Source of the DNA: a virus
Virus record (IMG/VR): IMGVR_UViG_3300037427_002536
Location: 1 to 23,239 of that record
DNA: 23,239 nt
Direction: 5' to 3' (one strand)
A program made the position numbers and the translations under genes. How positions within the stretch are numbered: position 1 is the stretch's first letter; each line of letters opens with the position of its first letter. Under the pieces are notes generated by a model that ran no database searches, was not told the DNA's origin, and worked only from the letters and a program-made list of their open reading frames with translations. This document shows positions 8,989-20,346 of this stretch, in pieces.

Positions 8989-9141
8989 CTAGGCGTCTTT
9001 ACACGCGCACCCACAAGCCTCGGTACATTCGCCTGAGTCGCAACAACCAGCGTTACATCCGCAAGAACACTTGTCATTACCCCAGTTGCAGCCAGAGGCA
9101 AACATCATAGTAAATACTGATAATAGTAGTAGTTTTTTCAT
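8989..9141 (-). CDS. Cys-rich small lipoprotein, 50 aa
   Basis: This short gene begins at an ATG within the ATGA overlap with the protease stop, so the two are almost certainly translationally coupled. GGAGAAAG lies just upstream. The product starts with a type II signal peptide: MKKLLLLSVFTMMF, then the lipobox ASGC, giving a predicted lipidated Cys18. The mature part is about 33 residues with ten Cys (18, 25, 27, 29, 33, 34, 39, 43, 45, 47), in C-x-C and CC patterns like a metallothionein or disulfide-rich peptide. It has no proline-rich region, unlike the Rz1 outer spanin. Lipidation and export are inferred from family rules. Function unknown; metal binding, disulfide exchange, protease partner or envelope anchor are possible. 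A terminator-like hairpin follows. Confidence 0.8.
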   Translation of the reverse strand: MKKLLLLSVFTMMFASGCNWGNDKCSCGCNAGCCDSGECTEACGCACKDA

Positions 9142-10121
9142 TCTTTCTCCATCGTTTTAAACGGTGCGGGTCTAGTTTCCAAAAAACTTGGTCGCCCGTC
9201 TTTATTCGTTTTGTAAATTCTTAACATAAAAGGAAAGCTTTTAGTCGTTTCATCTTCATCAGCAGTTTCGCCAGCTTCCTCCTCCTTCTCTTTAGGCTCA
9301 TGCTCAACAGGCATTTTCTTTAATTCGTCTTCCGAAGGCATGGCTACCTTTGGGTCTAGCGCCCACATTAATTTATGCTTTTCGCAATATTCTTGCATCC
9401 TACGGACGGGGACAATGAGATTAAATCCCTCACCGGCACCCCGAACAAGCATCCCAATATATTTAGCGTCTCCCTTTAAATAGACTCCGCCACCCGAAGA
9501 ACCTGGAAATGCGGTAACCGTCGTTTGGTCAAACACATGCTTATTTAAAGATTTAATGATTCTTCCGTGTTGAGAATAGATACCATCGGTCATAGAGTTT
9601 GCGCCCATTTGGCCTAGGAGAGAACCTACATGAAGTAGGTCCGTGCCTAAACCTGGGATTTTATCCTCGAGATAAAAGGTGACTGTATCTTTTACAAAAT
9701 TAAATTTACGAATACGCAGTAGAGCTAAGTCGTGCCCGTCTTTCGCGTCTGAATACTTTAATACTTCCGCGTCCATTTGAAGTCTGCCGACAGTTCTGCC
9801 GTTCTGCCTAATCTCCTTAACCACCATTGGGTCTTTAAACTCAACGATTGTTTTGGGGGAACCGTTAACCACGGTTTTCCTTGTCTTTCTTAAGTTGTCT
9901 ATAACGTGGGCGGCTGTCCACACAAAGTTTACTTGGTTTCCTTTCGAGTCTTTTCTTGTGAAAATGACCCCAGAGCCCTCCCCATTTGAGAAGTCCCCTT
10001 CTGACCTAATTGTTACGGAAACCGTTTGAAGATGCTCTGCGGTTTTGGAGTCTGCTTCTGCTGCGTGAGAGCTAGTTAGCAACGCGAAGCCCAGTACGAA
10101 TGCTGCGGCGATATTTTTCAT
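9138..10121 (-). CDS. Exported trypsin-like serine protease, 327 aa
   Basis: A predicted Sec signal peptide (residues 1-20, cleavage after SHA) is followed by a chymotrypsin-fold protease domain with a complete triad in order: His72 in TAAHVI, Asp131 in GHDLALLRI and Ser209 in FPGSSGGGVY. After about residue 260 comes a highly acidic linker (about 270-293) and a short C-terminal stretch of unknown role. The family cleaves peptide bonds through the triad; here the enzyme would act in the periplasm or outside. No PDZ domain is seen, so it is not a DegP/HtrA type. The start is the ATG 9 nt after the preceding stop; no clear Shine-Dalgarno is seen. Its stop overlaps the Cys-rich lipoprotein start by 4 nt. 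Virion processing is possible but the export signal argues against it. Exported trypsin-like proteases are unusual in phages. Confidence 0.88.
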   Translation of the reverse strand: MKNIAAAFVLGFALLTSSHAAEADSKTAEHLQTVSVTIRSEGDFSNGEGSGVIFTRKDSKGNQVNFVWTAAHVIDNLRKTRKTVVNGSPKTIVEFKDPMVVKEIRQNGRTVGRLQMDAEVLKYSDAKDGHDLALLRIRKFNFVKDTVTFYLEDKIPGLGTDLLHVGSLLGQMGANSMTDGIYSQHGRIIKSLNKHVFDQTTVTAFPGSSGGGVYLKGDAKYIGMLVRGAGEGFNLIVPVRRMQEYCEKHKLMWALDPKVAMPSEDELKKMPVEHEPKEKEEEAGETADEDETTKSFPFMLRIYKTNKDGRPSFLETRPAPFKTMEKE

Positions 10122-10130
10122 AATGTAAAA

Positions 10131-10652
10131 TTAACAATCAAAATAAAGATTAGAGCTTGGACCATCATTCTCAATGTACAATTCGTCTATATCTTCAAAG
10201 TGATAATCTAAATCGTAGTATTCAATATCAGACTTGGCTTTATCAAGGTCCTCATCGGACGGTTTGAAATAGTCTGTTATATCTACTAATTCATTGTAGG
10301 TAGGCTTTTTGCTAATATCTAAATTTAAATCATCAATTTTACCGGCGACCATGCGTAGAAATAAATTAACCCTCGCCAAACCGCGTTCGGTATTTGTTGA
10401 CTGAGGGTCATTTTTCATTCTAGCGCCATTGCAGAAAACGCTTTTGAGTTGATGTAGTTTAATTCGTTTAGAATGTTCTGAGTTATGGTTTTTAAGTTTA
10501 TCATCCAAAACTCCTAATACTTTCTTGGAAAACTCTATAGCTTCCGACTGTTCCTGCTGCGGGCTCTTAACGTCTGTAACGTCAAGCTCTACGCTAGGCG
10601 TTTCCGCTGCGCGGCTGTTTGTGTGATGCAAGTCGTAGTCTAGTTTATCCAT
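10131..10652 (-). CDS. Hypothetical acidic protein, 173 aa
   Basis: A soluble-looking protein with no signal peptide or membrane segment. The middle third (about 60-125) is the most ordered part: a basic helix (HSKRIKLHQLKSVFCNGA) then ERGLARVNLFLRMVAG. The C-terminal third is very acidic and Tyr-rich (IEYYDLDYHFEDIDELYIE). Such a split between basic core and acidic tail could suit a nucleic-acid or core-binding protein, but this is guesswork. It lies between the membrane coiled-coil gene and the protease gene, 9 nt before the latter. GTGTAA copy D sits 17 nt upstream of its ATG. No family recognised. Confidence 0.7.
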   Translation of the reverse strand: MDKLDYDLHHTNSRAAETPSVELDVTDVKSPQQEQSEAIEFSKKVLGVLDDKLKNHNSEHSKRIKLHQLKSVFCNGARMKNDPQSTNTERGLARVNLFLRMVAGKIDDLNLDISKKPTYNELVDITDYFKPSDEDLDKAKSDIEYYDLDYHFEDIDELYIENDGPSSNLYFDC

Positions 10653-10699: not shown

Positions 10700-11008
10700 T
10701 TATGTATAATCTCCATTTAATAGGGCGGTAAGATTGTTTATTCTCTCAATTAACTTTCTTATGCCTTCTTGCTGGTTTCTGATTACTGCTTCTTGCTCGT
10801 TTATATGTTTGACTGTTCCGCCTAGATTTTGCTCCATTCTTATAAGGCTCTCCTTTAAAAAATGGTTCTCACTTCTAAGTTGAGATTCCACACTCATTAT
10901 ATGAACACTAAGCCAAACTACGAATCCTAAAACAAAAAGAACCACCCCGAAATTAATTGCTTCGATGTGGTTTTTTACCCAATTCCAAGAGTTTTTAATG
11001 GTTTTCAT
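10700..11008 (-). CDS. Membrane-anchored coiled-coil protein, 102 aa (inner-spanin-like topology)
   Basis: The N-terminus is short and basic (KTIKNSWNWVKNH). One clear transmembrane helix follows at about 18-39 (FGVVLFVLGFVVWLSVHI), then a predicted coiled coil from about 40 to 98 rich in Glu, Gln, Asn and Leu. By the positive-inside rule the coiled coil would lie in the periplasm. This matches inner spanins (Rz-like), which join an outer-membrane lipoprotein during lysis, and a small lipoprotein is encoded two genes later. However, no holin or endolysin is seen nearby, and short membrane coiled coils have other uses such as superinfection exclusion. The ATG at 11008 is supported by GAGG 8 nt upstream. 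It is the first gene after a strong terminator. Confidence 0.7.
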   Translation of the reverse strand: MKTIKNSWNWVKNHIEAINFGVVLFVLGFVVWLSVHIMSVESQLRSENHFLKESLIRMEQNLGGTVKHINEQEAVIRNQQEGIRKLIERINNLTALLNGDYT

Positions 11009-11318: not shown

Positions 11319-14300
11319 TTAATTTTCTTCTAATTTAGCTTCTAGCGCCTCGACTTTGGCGGCTAGCTCTTGAACAGCTTTAAGTAAGCATGTGTTTATT
11401 AGGTCGTAATTTACAGATTTTAAAGCGTCTTGCTTTTCTTCTTCGGATAGATTATGGTAATTGGGTACGCCTATAAATGCGAGGTCGTCTACCCCCACCT
11501 CTTCCAGAACCGCTTCTAACTCTTGGGCGATTAGACCGCAGTTTTTTCTTGGGGTAGCGTCGGTTGTTCTTCTGAATTCTACGGGTCTAAGTTTTTTGAT
11601 AAAATCCAAACCTAAAGACAAATCTTCAATATCCGTTTTGATTCTAGCATCAGAATACCACCATTGAGAAATGCGCCAACTTCTAGCTATAAAGCCTTCA
11701 TTAAAATATCTACTAGGAGAACCAAGCCTAGAGCCGTAAACTATTTTTATGCTTGAAGCTCCATAGTTCCCCCTGCCCCATTGGTCACTTTCCTGTACTC
11801 CAATACCCCAAAGCTTGCCGTACAAGCTCGAAGTAGTTGGGCTAACGCCCGCTGACAATGTGGCCTCGGCGGCTTTTTCAGCAGCAGTTACATCTATTGC
11901 ATTTGTGTAAGGCTCGATGTTAAATGATTTAAGACCTATACCAGTGCGGGTCAGAAGTACAGACTTGACTGTATTAAACTGAACGTTGCTGGTTGTGTCT
12001 ACGGATTGGTTTGCTGTATAGGTGGTGTACCCTTCGCCGTTGGTTAATTGATTGTTGTTTGTTGGGATTGTTGTGCTGTTAAACGCGTTAGCGCCAAATG
12101 TATAAGACTGGTCTGTTGTTCCATTAACGCTAAAAGTTAATTTATTAATATCATCGCCAGTACCTTTTGTGATACCATCTAAATAATTGTTGGTGTCCGT
12201 GGAGCTGATGGTGAATTTGTTTGCGTCTGTTCTTGTGACTGAAGTTGCTCCGTCGCCCACGAATTCAATGTCATCTGTGACCGGAGTAGCACTGGAATCA
12301 GTTAGTCTAAGTTTGGTGGTGCTGTCTGGGATGCTTATTGAATAGGTTGTGTTGGTGTCTGTATCCGTAAACAGCGCATTAGCTGGAACGTCTGTCAGCA
12401 CTTGTGTCGCTAAGGCAAACGTACCCTTGGTTTCATAAGCCGCGCTTTTGAGACCCAAGAAAGTTTGAACCTGACCATCAGTAAAGTCATAATGAACGGT
12501 GCCCCCATTTACCTTACCAATTATATGTTTTAAAGCGGTAGTTGTTGTGTTAGCTGCTGTGGCTAAATTTGTATCGCATTTTATTTTGGTAACGGTTAGT
12601 TTATCTTCGTGAGGGTTATAAAATATATTTGCGTCCGTAAAGAGTGATTCAGCAGCGGCGGCGGAGTTGTTGTCATTAACAAAAGTTAAATAATGATTTG
12701 AATTATTATTATATGTTTTGGGGTTTGTGTTGGGAACTACCTCGCTGACGTCTCTTTGTATTGTATTTATTGTATCTGCTACGCCGCCGTTTGCGGAGCC
12801 AGCCGTGGTCGCGTAAGGAACGGTAATGTACCCCAAGTCGGTACTGCCATCGACAGCTTGAAGCCCAATCTTATTGTCGTTGTTTCCCGAGCCTACCACA
12901 AGGCTTCCACCAAGGGCGGCATCTTTTAGGTAGAAGTTTAAACTGATATTACCATTAGTGGGAGCGAGGTCGCCTGAGTTTTGAGCTGTACGCTCAACGT
13001 TGGTGTATAATTGGCCATGCGTTATTAGCTCTATTTGACCCACGCCACCACCGCCACCTTGCCCAGCGGACTCTTCTTTGAAGCCAATGATTTGGCCTTT
13101 TCTATTAATCTTGAGTGTGGGGTATACCGTAGAGCTGCCGATTATAATTTCATCCGCCCAATCTGTCGAGGCCACCGTGGTCATGTTGACTCCTGCTGAA
13201 GCGTCTATCTGAGCTTGTGGGTTTGCGGTGGGGTCTATGAAACTTGCTAAATGGTCAAACAGCTTTGAATCAAAACTTATATTAGCGCTTCCATCAAAAG
13301 AGTTTGTTATGCCATCTATATCGCCAGCCGCTTGGCTGGAAGTTTTACCAATGGTTATATCTCTCGCGGTTTCTAAAGCTGTAGCTGTAGCGGCATTGCC
13401 TGTTGTGTCTTGGTCCCAAGTAGGGACTGTACCCAACTTAGAGTACGCGATAGCCGCGTCAGATTTAATATCCGCATTTACAATCACGCCAGCAGCAATA
13501 GAAGTAGCGTTTCCTACAGAAGTAACATCTCCTGTTAAGTTAGCGTTTGTAGTTACTGTGTCTGCGTTACCTTCTAGTGCGCCAATGAATTTTGTTGCTT
13601 TTGCGTTGCCATTGACTTCTAGTAATTCGGTTAGGGTACTCGTTGTGCCTATGCCAACATTTCCATAATTAAAAACATATTGAGAAGCACCGAATTGCAA
13701 CCCCCTGTTCGATGTACCATTCTTCTCCGATTTAATCCAAGAAGTGCTGGTCGCAGTATCGAACATTAAGTGGAGCCCATCGCTTCCTACTGGACTAGCT
13801 GTGCCGCCATCAGTAATGGACGTGCCCCCTACTATCTGTAATTTATTTACTGGCGCACTTGACCCCGTGCCTACGCCAACATCTCCCGTATCTGTGATAA
13901 CCATTTTAGGCGTGCCTAGGAACGTGGGCTGTACAGAGCCTTCCACATGAAAAGCCATGTAATCTGGCGTAGATGTCCTGTGGGTTATCATGGACCCGTG
14001 GCCCGCCCTACCGAATCTTATACCTCCGTCATTATTGGACTCGATGTCCAACATGATACTGTCACTGCCCGAGGACTGTTTAATATGCAGCAAAGACGAA
14101 AGCGCGCCTGTTCCCGTGCCTATGCCAACTTTTCCATCTGGGTGAAGAGATAATACTTCAGTAGTCGGGCTATCGTCACTTATAAACCTCAGTCTATCAT
14201 TAGCAATAACAGTCCACTCACCTTGACTGTTTTTCATCTTTACGCCAGCGTTACCTACTCCGGAATTTTCGACAAAGAAGTAAGTGTTGTTAGTATTTGC

Positions 14301-14696
14301 ACCATTGTAAAGTTTGACTGTATCGCTATTAACGTCAAGACGACCATTAGTACTGACGCTTCCATCATCTAGTATAGTCAAAGCCGCAGGTGAGCTCCTA
14401 GTGCCAAACACTAAATTGGGATATCCGTCAGTGGTGGTATAATCTACTTTTATAGAAGCCATCACTGTAGTGGCTGCGACACCTTGCGTAAAAGCAATAC
14501 CTCCATAATTGGTGGCGTTAGATGTTGTACCCTCATTGTTAATAACTAGTTGGTACTTCGGCTCTTCATTAATTCTAGAGATAGCTAATTCAAAATCCGT
14601 AGTGGCAGAAGCTTCTATACCAATAGCGACATTACTTCGGGAGCCTGAATCAGCTTTACCGAGTGTCAAATTTGGAACGTCTCTAATTTTAATCAT
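11319..14696 (-). CDS. Tail fibre/spike with C-terminal S74 intramolecular chaperone, 1125 aa
   Basis: A long beta-rich fibre protein. The last 111 residues form a peptidase S74 (endosialidase-type) chaperone domain. It begins at SDARIKTDI (about 1015-1023), the family's Ser/Lys self-cleavage site, and continues with LGLDFIKKLRPVEFRR and CGLIAQELEAV. It ends in a coiled-coil helix. In this family the domain trimerises the fibre and then cuts itself off. The shaft shows repeats of the form GxVGIGT...L at about 188, 272 and 345, a block LTGDVTSVGNATSIAAGVIV near 387-406, and Thr/Asn-rich beta repeats. The gene starts 3 nt after the stop of the tail-tube-like gene. It probably encodes the host-binding or side fibre; the receptor is unknown. 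Confidence 0.92.
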   Translation of the reverse strand: MIKIRDVPNLTLGKADSGSRSNVAIGIEASATTDFELAISRINEEPKYQLVINNEGTTSNATNYGGIAFTQGVAATTVMASIKVDYTTTDGYPNLVFGTRSSPAALTILDDGSVSTNGRLDVNSDTVKLYNGANTNNTYFFVENSGVGNAGVKMKNSQGEWTVIANDRLRFISDDSPTTEVLSLHPDGKVGIGTGTGALSSLLHIKQSSGSDSIMLDIESNNDGGIRFGRAGHGSMITHRTSTPDYMAFHVEGSVQPTFLGTPKMVITDTGDVGVGTGSSAPVNKLQIVGGTSITDGGTASPVGSDGLHLMFDTATSTSWIKSEKNGTSNRGLQFGASQYVFNYGNVGIGTTSTLTELLEVNGNAKATKFIGALEGNADTVTTNANLTGDVTSVGNATSIAAGVIVNADIKSDAAIAYSKLGTVPTWDQDTTGNAATATALETARDITIGKTSSQAAGDIDGITNSFDGSANISFDSKLFDHLASFIDPTANPQAQIDASAGVNMTTVASTDWADEIIIGSSTVYPTLKINRKGQIIGFKEESAGQGGGGGVGQIELITHGQLYTNVERTAQNSGDLAPTNGNISLNFYLKDAALGGSLVVGSGNNDNKIGLQAVDGSTDLGYITVPYATTAGSANGGVADTINTIQRDVSEVVPNTNPKTYNNNSNHYLTFVNDNNSAAAAESLFTDANIFYNPHEDKLTVTKIKCDTNLATAANTTTTALKHIIGKVNGGTVHYDFTDGQVQTFLGLKSAAYETKGTFALATQVLTDVPANALFTDTDTNTTYSISIPDSTTKLRLTDSSATPVTDDIEFVGDGATSVTRTDANKFTISSTDTNNYLDGITKGTGDDINKLTFSVNGTTDQSYTFGANAFNSTTIPTNNNQLTNGEGYTTYTANQSVDTTSNVQFNTVKSVLLTRTGIGLKSFNIEPYTNAIDVTAAEKAAEATLSAGVSPTTSSLYGKLWGIGVQESDQWGRGNYGASSIKIVYGSRLGSPSRYFNEGFIARSWRISQWWYSDARIKTDIEDLSLGLDFIKKLRPVEFRRTTDATPRKNCGLIAQELEAVLEEVGVDDLAFIGVPNYHNLSEEEKQDALKSVNYDLINTCLLKAVQELAAKVEALEAKLEEN

Positions 14697-18525: not shown

Positions 18526-20346
18526 TTAGAGCATTTTGGGCATAAATGTTGCCGTTTCTTCTTTCGGCTTTGCCATCATGTCATAATAACACTTTACGGC
18601 CCAATTACCTAACATTAATGTCGTATAGTTGTCTCTACGGGCTCTATTTTGCGTTGTGTCGCGTTTTAAATGCTGCGGAAGGTCAAACGTCTGCACCCCC
18701 TTAGCGGTGCTTCTAACCTCAATTAGCGTGCATTGTTTTTTTACTTGATATATAAGGTTATCTTGATTTTCGATTAAGTCAAGTATAGATTCTCCATTTT
18801 TGAATTTTAATTTCAAATTTTGATTCGTAGCTCTATTAAAGGCGTCTGGGGCTGGGGATAACCTAGAAGCAAACCAAAGCTTTTTATGGTCAATACAGGC
18901 CTGAAGATATTCATTGGCATTTCTAATAAAGTTAGTGGTAAACATCTGCTTGAAGCACTTCACGCCGTCCTGCTTGTTGTAGAGGCGTCTGGCTTTTCTA
19001 AGCATCTTCTCTTGGTCTACCCCCTCCTTATCGGAATCAAAGTCAAAAAACTTCATCTGCTTTTTAACGAATGATGAATTTTCATTACATGAGTCTAGAA
19101 ATTGATAGCCAGCATTATCAATAATAATCATTTCTAAATTGAAGGAATCAGTTACGTAGTCCATATAAGCGATATGGTCTTTAAGGTCTGCTCCAGCTAC
19201 CGCGTAATTATGAACTAATGTAGAGGTATATGGGTTTTCTTCATCTAGCTCCATAACTGCCATAGCAAAAAAGTCAGAAGTTGGGCTATTCGAAAAAGAG
19301 GGGTCAATTCCTAGGATATATTTTTTGTTTTTATCACCCTTAATCTTTAGTGTCGGGTATTCCCCGTCAGGCACGGTACAGGCATGCATTTTCTTCGCAC
19401 TAAAGTAGCTATCGCTTCCATCAGTGAATTGAGCACAATACTCGCGCTGAAAACTAGAGTGGCTTTGCCCACCGCTTTGAGCTTCTTCAATTATTGTCGG
19501 GTCAATCATTTCTTCAGGTAAAGCTTCGTAACCCATTTGAGATATAAAATAGCTTGCGTCCGCAGATTCTTTGCTGTATATTTTTTCCATCCACTCCTTG
19601 TATTGCCGATAGAGATTTTCAAACGTATAACTAGCGGAAGAAAGGGCAATCATTTTAGATGTGTTTTCGAACACAAGTCTATCCGCCTCTTTCATGTGAC
19701 CGTCTTCTATAAGTTTGTCTTCCATCTCTCTGATTTGTAGGCGCTCTTTCATGTTCTGCGGAGCAACCAAGAACGGCATGAGAACGGTGGTAATAATATC
19801 TTCAGGCAATAAAAGGTACTCATCAAGAACCAGTACGTTGGCGCGAAAACCACGGATTTTTTCACCGTTAAGAGGGATAGCGGTAATAGAGCCTCCGTTA
19901 ATCAACCATTCGAATTGGTCATTACGCTTGGCTTTAGCCCCAAAACACTGAGCTAACAATTCAGCCTCTTTAGATTCTACAAGCTTTTCTAAGTGGTTGA
20001 ATATAAAACGAGCAGTACGAAAAGTCGGTCCAGCAATTAGAATTTTAGTGCCAGGTTCAAATAAGCACTGAAGAAAACAAAACACTGAAGCGATAAATGT
20101 TTTACCGCAGCCACGACCCCATACGCACATGGAAAAGTTTCTGTTAAGCATTCCCTTTAGCGTCACCTCTTGGTACGGGGCCAGTTTAAGCCCGGATATC
20201 AACTCCGTTGTAAACCCCACATTTGCTCGCAAAAATCTAGCCAAGGATATTTTAGCCTCTTTGTCTTGAAGGTCCCCCTTTAGACTCTTAAACTCCTCGT
20301 TCAAGTCGGGGAAATTTCTATCGTATTTTTCTGGAGCGTACCACAT
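18526..20346 (-). CDS. terL: Terminase large subunit, 606 aa
   Basis: This is the ATP-driven DNA-packaging motor and head-filling nuclease. The N-terminal ATPase has Walker A GRGCGKT at 77-83 and Walker B VLVLDE at 171-176, followed by a likely coupling motif (ALSSASY) near 234-240. The C-terminal RNase H-like nuclease has three acidic sites: Asp348 in ILGIDPS, Asp410 in IIIDNAG and Asp572 in RRDNYTT. The length is typical. A charged helical stretch (about 200-225) lies in the ATPase linker. The gene starts by a 1-nt TAATG overlap with the ERCC4 nuclease gene. All motifs are intact, so it is probably functional. Confidence 0.97.
   Translation of the reverse strand: MWYAPEKYDRNFPDLNEEFKSLKGDLQDKEAKISLARFLRANVGFTTELISGLKLAPYQEVTLKGMLNRNFSMCVWGRGCGKTFIASVFCFLQCLFEPGTKILIAGPTFRTARFIFNHLEKLVESKEAELLAQCFGAKAKRNDQFEWLINGGSITAIPLNGEKIRGFRANVLVLDEYLLLPEDIITTVLMPFLVAPQNMKERLQIREMEDKLIEDGHMKEADRLVFENTSKMIALSSASYTFENLYRQYKEWMEKIYSKESADASYFISQMGYEALPEEMIDPTIIEEAQSGGQSHSSFQREYCAQFTDGSDSYFSAKKMHACTVPDGEYPTLKIKGDKNKKYILGIDPSFSNSPTSDFFAMAVMELDEENPYTSTLVHNYAVAGADLKDHIAYMDYVTDSFNLEMIIIDNAGYQFLDSCNENSSFVKKQMKFFDFDSDKEGVDQEKMLRKARRLYNKQDGVKCFKQMFTTNFIRNANEYLQACIDHKKLWFASRLSPAPDAFNRATNQNLKLKFKNGESILDLIENQDNLIYQVKKQCTLIEVRSTAKGVQTFDLPQHLKRDTTQNRARRDNYTTLMLGNWAVKCYYDMMAKPKEETATFMPKML

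Follow-up and report, generated by a model that had tools for sequence, protein, structure and literature searches.

The locus at positions 8989-9141 raises the question of whether a minus-strand open reading frame with a 50-residue product, overlapping the end of a protease gene, is a genuine phage gene and, if so, what a small Cys-rich lipoprotein does for the phage. The window, meaning the whole stretch of DNA that was analysed, is a complete virus record of 23,239 bases. Its identifiable genes are those of a tailed phage and include genes for an S74-chaperone-domain tail-fibre protein (11319-14696) and for a large terminase subunit (18526-20346); putative portal, prohead-protease/scaffold, and capsid genes were assigned solely from their size and order. 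Relatives of the terminase in IMG/VR number more than 500, and against deposited phage genomes it gave only partial matches of less than 60% identity, the best being about 24%. On terminase sequence, the virus belongs to a large phage group to which no deposited phage is closely related.

The product, MKKLLLLSVFTMMFASGCNWGNDKCSCGCNAGCCDSGECTEACGCACKDA, contains ten Cys within residues 18-50, its last 33 residues, as the preliminary description had reported without naming a strand. These are the lipobox Cys18 and nine further Cys (residues 25, 27, 29, 33, 34, 39, 43, 45, and 47). All features of this region are on the minus strand. A signal peptide (residues 1-17; 9091-9141) ends in A-S-G immediately before Cys18 (9088-9090), the predicted lipidated N-terminal Cys of the mature protein, and the nine remaining Cys form a domain spanning residues 25-47 (9001-9069). 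A Shine-Dalgarno-like GGAG (9147-9150) is located 5 nt upstream of the ATG. The A-S-G-C lipobox and the 4-nt ATGA overlap with an exported protease, both described earlier, are present in the sequence, the overlap (9138-9141) being formed by the lipoprotein ATG (9139-9141) and the protease stop codon TGA (9138-9140). The protease gene (9138-10121) encodes a trypsin-like serine protease of 327 aa with a signal peptide and a match to Trypsin_2 (PF13365; E 5e-9). Genes for a 173-aa protein of unknown function (10131-10652) and for a 102-aa protein with an N-terminal transmembrane (TM) segment and a coiled coil (10700-11008), inner-spanin-like in layout only, are located further upstream.

Relatives of the lipoprotein were reached via the protease neighbour first and then via family alignments. 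Counting that of the window, the family comprises 46 distinct sequences, all from phage contigs in IMG/VR, and has the framework C(lipid)-x6-C-x2-C-x-C-x3-CC-x4-C-x4-C-x-C-x-C with minor variation in the loops. Among 49 records searched whole, 24 held a convincing lipoprotein copy, one each, and the remainder were mostly fragments. In L025 and L052, the lipid Cys is replaced by an N-terminal hydrophobic anchor and the Cys counts are 9 and 11. The window peptide alone gave no match when used as the query against viral contigs, and deposited phages queried with the window peptide and a consensus member gave chance-level matches only. Degenerate-DNA scans were run on subsets because of the high diversity of the whole family alignment. 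At the sensitivity of these searches, no family match was obtained in Pfam, NCBIfam, PHROGs, deposited phages, or the PDB. A search of 299 Pseudomonadota genomes gave no match, an empty result that is uninformative because the host may belong to another phylum. The sole match in the genome collection, in Roseibium (L177), was rejected as a chance 20-residue alignment inside an unrelated sequence, and a weak match in G017 was rejected as a different lipoprotein with few Cys.

Over 65 close pairs, dN/dS was approximately 0.13 for the whole protein, 0.19 for the signal peptide, and 0.09 for the mature part, the pairwise values having branches in common and hence not being independent. Both Cys codons, TGT and TGC, are used at every conserved Cys position, and the encoded residue is Cys in 417 of 420 alignment cells; the lipobox Cys is conserved in 40 of the 42 aligned family members. 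A density of nine Cys per 23 residues did not occur in any open segment of 150 first-order Markov windows of the same length, and a scan for a lipobox plus Cys in more than 1 Mb of fetched loci returned essentially only the lipoprotein family and three unrelated matches. The reading frame at 8989-9141 is thus a real phage gene with a conserved family under purifying selection. The preliminary description had called it a probable real gene despite its size and had proposed examining related phages for the Cys spacing and lipobox, as well as the ratio of synonymous to nonsynonymous substitution. Its judgement is confirmed: spacing and lipobox both recur among the relatives, and substitution is purifying, not neutral.

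The protease query yielded 55 IMG/VR loci. A protein of 47-64 aa with the Cys framework is encoded downstream of the protease, within about 175 nt, in 23 of these, and most of the 23 overlap the protease stop codon or start within 20 nt of it; five more loci have an alternative Cys-rich lipoprotein instead. When loci were collected by the lipoprotein and not by the protease, the protease was nearby in 20 of 41, and three of the loci without it give no information because they start at a contig end. Tens of kb separate the two genes in G008, G010, and G013; contigs of 178 kb and 162 kb likewise encode both at such a distance. No protease was found in the 142-kb record G043, which is possibly incomplete. 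ATGA overlaps occur with trypsin-like, ClpP-like, and HAD genes alike. The earlier claim that the lipoprotein is coupled to a protease therefore stands for about half of the family, in which the two genes are adjacent; in other phages the ATGA-type overlap is with a ClpP-like or HAD gene. The trypsin-like protease often adjoins the lipoprotein gene and is not an obligatory partner.

In another context, PhoH, ClpP-like, and HAD genes are followed by the lipoprotein gene and then by a gene for a second small Cys-containing protein. This protein, with the consensus MGTWSSGxGKFxKKDPNHGxLWKKIKxWxCxxGLCNLxKC, is encoded directly 3' of the lipoprotein in many phages (for example L138:4160-4375, L143:4153-4305, L146:4446-4688, L150:4449-4688, and L171:4160-4462); it is conserved and basic, has no signal peptide, and gave no significant Pfam or PHROG match. 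Further contexts of the lipoprotein gene are portal genes, tail genes, or a lipoprotein weakly resembling C39 peptidases, and in L159 and L172 a piece homologous to the C-terminal part of the 173-aa protein lies directly before it. The lipoprotein gene is linked to structural and envelope genes. The alternative occupant of the slot after the protease, found in five loci (L007:6971-7102, L010, L011:6971-7102, L013, and L020:6977-7102), is a different lipoprotein of 41-43 aa with repeated C-x-C (MKYLIIAILGATLVGCACMPCTGSVACPCDKVCACKGECICDK).

Several side observations were made in the same phages. A tmRNA gene of their own is located downstream of the protease in several (L014:7360-7770, L030:8059-8459, L189:10910-11327, L047:6984-7372, L052:6682-7082, and L201:5-397), that of L189 matching Rfam RF00023 with 125.7 bits; the predicted tag peptides, which include ANDNVDMAPSVAEADEILARFGFQEAALAA and GKNKVSELFAKVADMFQATPKQELALA, are unusually long at 21-31 residues. 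In L014, L021, L017, L172, L159, L222, and L223, the motif EIDFTxQIK opens several otherwise different small proteins, and AGYPPNCNxGYEEKDGKC is common to many; these may represent a shared targeting or assembly tag. A tubulin/FtsZ-like (TubZ-like) protein adjoins the portal gene in L213 (9305-10462) and L006 (Pfam PF00091, E 1.5e-11).

The Cys domains of the 46 members, taken from first to last Cys, consist of 36% Cys together with Ser, Asp, Ala, and Gly; 6% of residues are hydrophobic, and there is one aromatic residue in total. No normal hydrophobic core is possible with this composition, and folding must therefore come from cross-links or metals. AlphaFold2, run without ligands, produced no confident fold (mean pLDDT 55), low confidence being expected for any shallow alignment anyway. 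The number of Cys after the anchor position is nine in 38 of the 46 members, ten in L005 and the L104/L159/L160/L172 group, and eight in L024 and L193. A Cys number that shifts one by one is unlike obligate disulfide pairs, and the different C-x-C lipoprotein in the same slot suggests that anchored thiols, not one exact sequence, are conserved. On the basis of these single changes, the predominance of nine thiols, the odd counts in L025 and L052, the C-x-C substitute, and the composition, we consider a putative metal-thiolate microdomain, metallothionein-like, more likely than a disulfide knot. Against the metal reading, the C-x-C lipoprotein has eight Cys after its anchor, an even number. In most Gram-negative bacteria the periplasm is oxidising towards thiols and thus favours disulfides; the envelope type of this host may differ. 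The best sequence match in the PDB was conotoxin Vc7.2, a cystine-knot peptide with C-C-CC-C-C spacing, at a non-significant E of 0.03, and the family consensus resembles inhibitor cystine-knot peptides in its sub-spacing C-x4-C-x3-CC-x4-C-x4-C when one Cys is skipped. It differs from them in having three more Cys and an odd total, and the window sequence differs in a loop; the odd count and the single Cys changes argue against an inhibitor cystine knot.

The reading that we prefer, with a probability of roughly 0.4, is that this real gene encodes a lipid-anchored nine-thiol microdomain that would be folded by metal and would most likely serve as an envelope metal or thiol trap, the protease not being an obligatory partner. 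The precursor would be exported by Sec and lipidated on Cys18, and the mature peptide would be displayed towards the periplasm on one of the infected cell's envelope membranes. There, nine free thiols could fold the chain around d10 ions, Zn(II) or Cu(I), as a thiolate cluster, and the membrane-tethered trap may alter the envelope's metal or redox state in late infection. Nine-Cys metallothionein domains fold by binding d10 metals in a thiolate cluster. The phage peptide shares with metallothioneins, as these are generally known (the nine-Cys beta-domain; bacterial SmtA/BmtA), nine thiols in a short domain, the motifs C-x-C, C-x-x-C, and CC, a Cys content of about one-third, and hardly any aromatic or hydrophobic residues. 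It differs in its predicted export and lipid anchor and in having no detectable homology to them, and its metal binding is putative: mature peptides searched against Pfam at E up to 10 matched no family, metallothioneins included, NCBIfam gave no metallothionein match for the family, none was among the PDB matches, and a literature search found no paper on phage metallothioneins. The narrower proposal of a phage membrane-tethered metallothionein, in which a lipid- or helix-anchored nine-thiolate cluster would be placed on the envelope of the host during late infection and be substituted by the C-x-C lipoprotein in sister phages, is offered more tentatively.

Two alternatives draw on the neighbouring genes. 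The lipoprotein might be a partner of the exported trypsin-like protease, as its membrane anchor, inhibitor, chaperone, or substrate. The frequent adjacency, the several ATGA overlaps, and the invariance of the catalytic triad of the protease (His72/Asp131/Ser209 in 56 sequences) are consistent with this, as is the peptidase-like character of the upstream gene elsewhere, which is ClpP-like (PF00574) or the weakly C39-peptidase-like lipoprotein. Such a role is possible where the two genes adjoin; as a general explanation it is unlikely, given that about half of the lipoprotein loci have no protease close by, many protease loci have no lipoprotein nearby, the genes can be widely separated, overlaps are just as tight with ClpP-like and HAD genes, and the lipoprotein neighbours in L169 and L153 are portal and tail genes. 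The other alternative, an unusual outer spanin, had been raised in the preliminary description and is weakened to the point of being very improbable. It would place the lipoprotein in a lysis cassette, paired with the 102-aa TM coiled-coil protein (10700-11008). Like Rz1-type outer spanins, the product is a small phage lipoprotein with a TM coiled-coil protein near it in some genomes: in the window, L002, and L005, one of inner-spanin layout is encoded about 1.6 kb upstream, and such proteins are also present in L193, L219, and L222. Unlike them, it is Cys-rich and has no Pro-rich segment, and what makes the assignment unlikely is that L193, L219, and L222 carry a separate Pro-rich lipoprotein after the Cys lipoprotein, a better outer-spanin candidate. 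In addition, PHROG spanin matches were at chance level, and the coiled-coil gene is not consistently linked to the lipoprotein gene. The group of genes in these relatives (L193:11285-12316; L219:2758-4477; L222:2758-4481), comprising the TM coiled-coil protein, the weakly C39-peptidase-like lipoprotein, the Cys lipoprotein, and the Pro-rich lipoprotein, is a possible lysis cassette.

The remaining alternatives concern the envelope itself. The preliminary description could name no phage role for such a peptide, and here it is corrected: small disulfide-containing phage lipoproteins are known as superinfection-exclusion factors, T5 Llp acting on FhuA and Rtp45 on LptDE, with one disulfide each, Cys11-Cys58 in Llp and Cys30-Cys38 in Rtp45 (PMC9586334, PMC12685063). 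By analogy with this documented role of phage lipoproteins of about 6-8 kDa, the product could be a disulfide-stiffened lipoprotein that engages an outer-membrane receptor from the periplasm, denying the receptor to later phages and to progeny. Most members have Asn, Lys, or Arg immediately after the lipidated Cys, which in E. coli would not retain a lipoprotein in the inner membrane and so fits such a location. The product is likewise phage-encoded and small with a Cys-containing mature part, its lipidation being predicted from the conserved lipobox. Whereas Llp and Rtp45 have one disulfide and a receptor-binding surface, it has nine Cys, an odd number, and little other sequence, and its mature part is strongly conserved across many phages when a protein that plugs a receptor would be expected to diverge along with it. 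The hydrophobic anchors of L025 and L052 would imply the inner membrane, and neither Cor nor any other exclusion family resembles the product in sequence; the window protein retrieved no PHROG family at E up to 1, and thus no known exclusion family. These counter-arguments weigh against exclusion and leave it doubtful, as the main rival and second after envelope metal or thiol capture. A redox effector, whose thiols would accept electrons or disulfides from DsbA-type machinery or reshuffle the disulfides of, for example, LptD, is improbable. Very dense thiols at the periplasmic side would suit this role, and LptM, a small host lipoprotein that is a maturation factor for LptD disulfides, provides a precedent (PMC12685063). 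The phage product has no thioredoxin-like active site or fold, and the LptM profile matched one member at E 0.11, a chance-level match driven by the signal peptide.

Genes as short as this one are often overlooked, and the lipoprotein family is absent from every family library searched, yet strongly selected. Should exclusion prove to be its role, the lipoprotein would be a new scaffold for that function. We know of no earlier envelope-anchored phage metallothionein; if metal binding is true, this family would be the first, and envelope metals or thiols would be something that phages manage.
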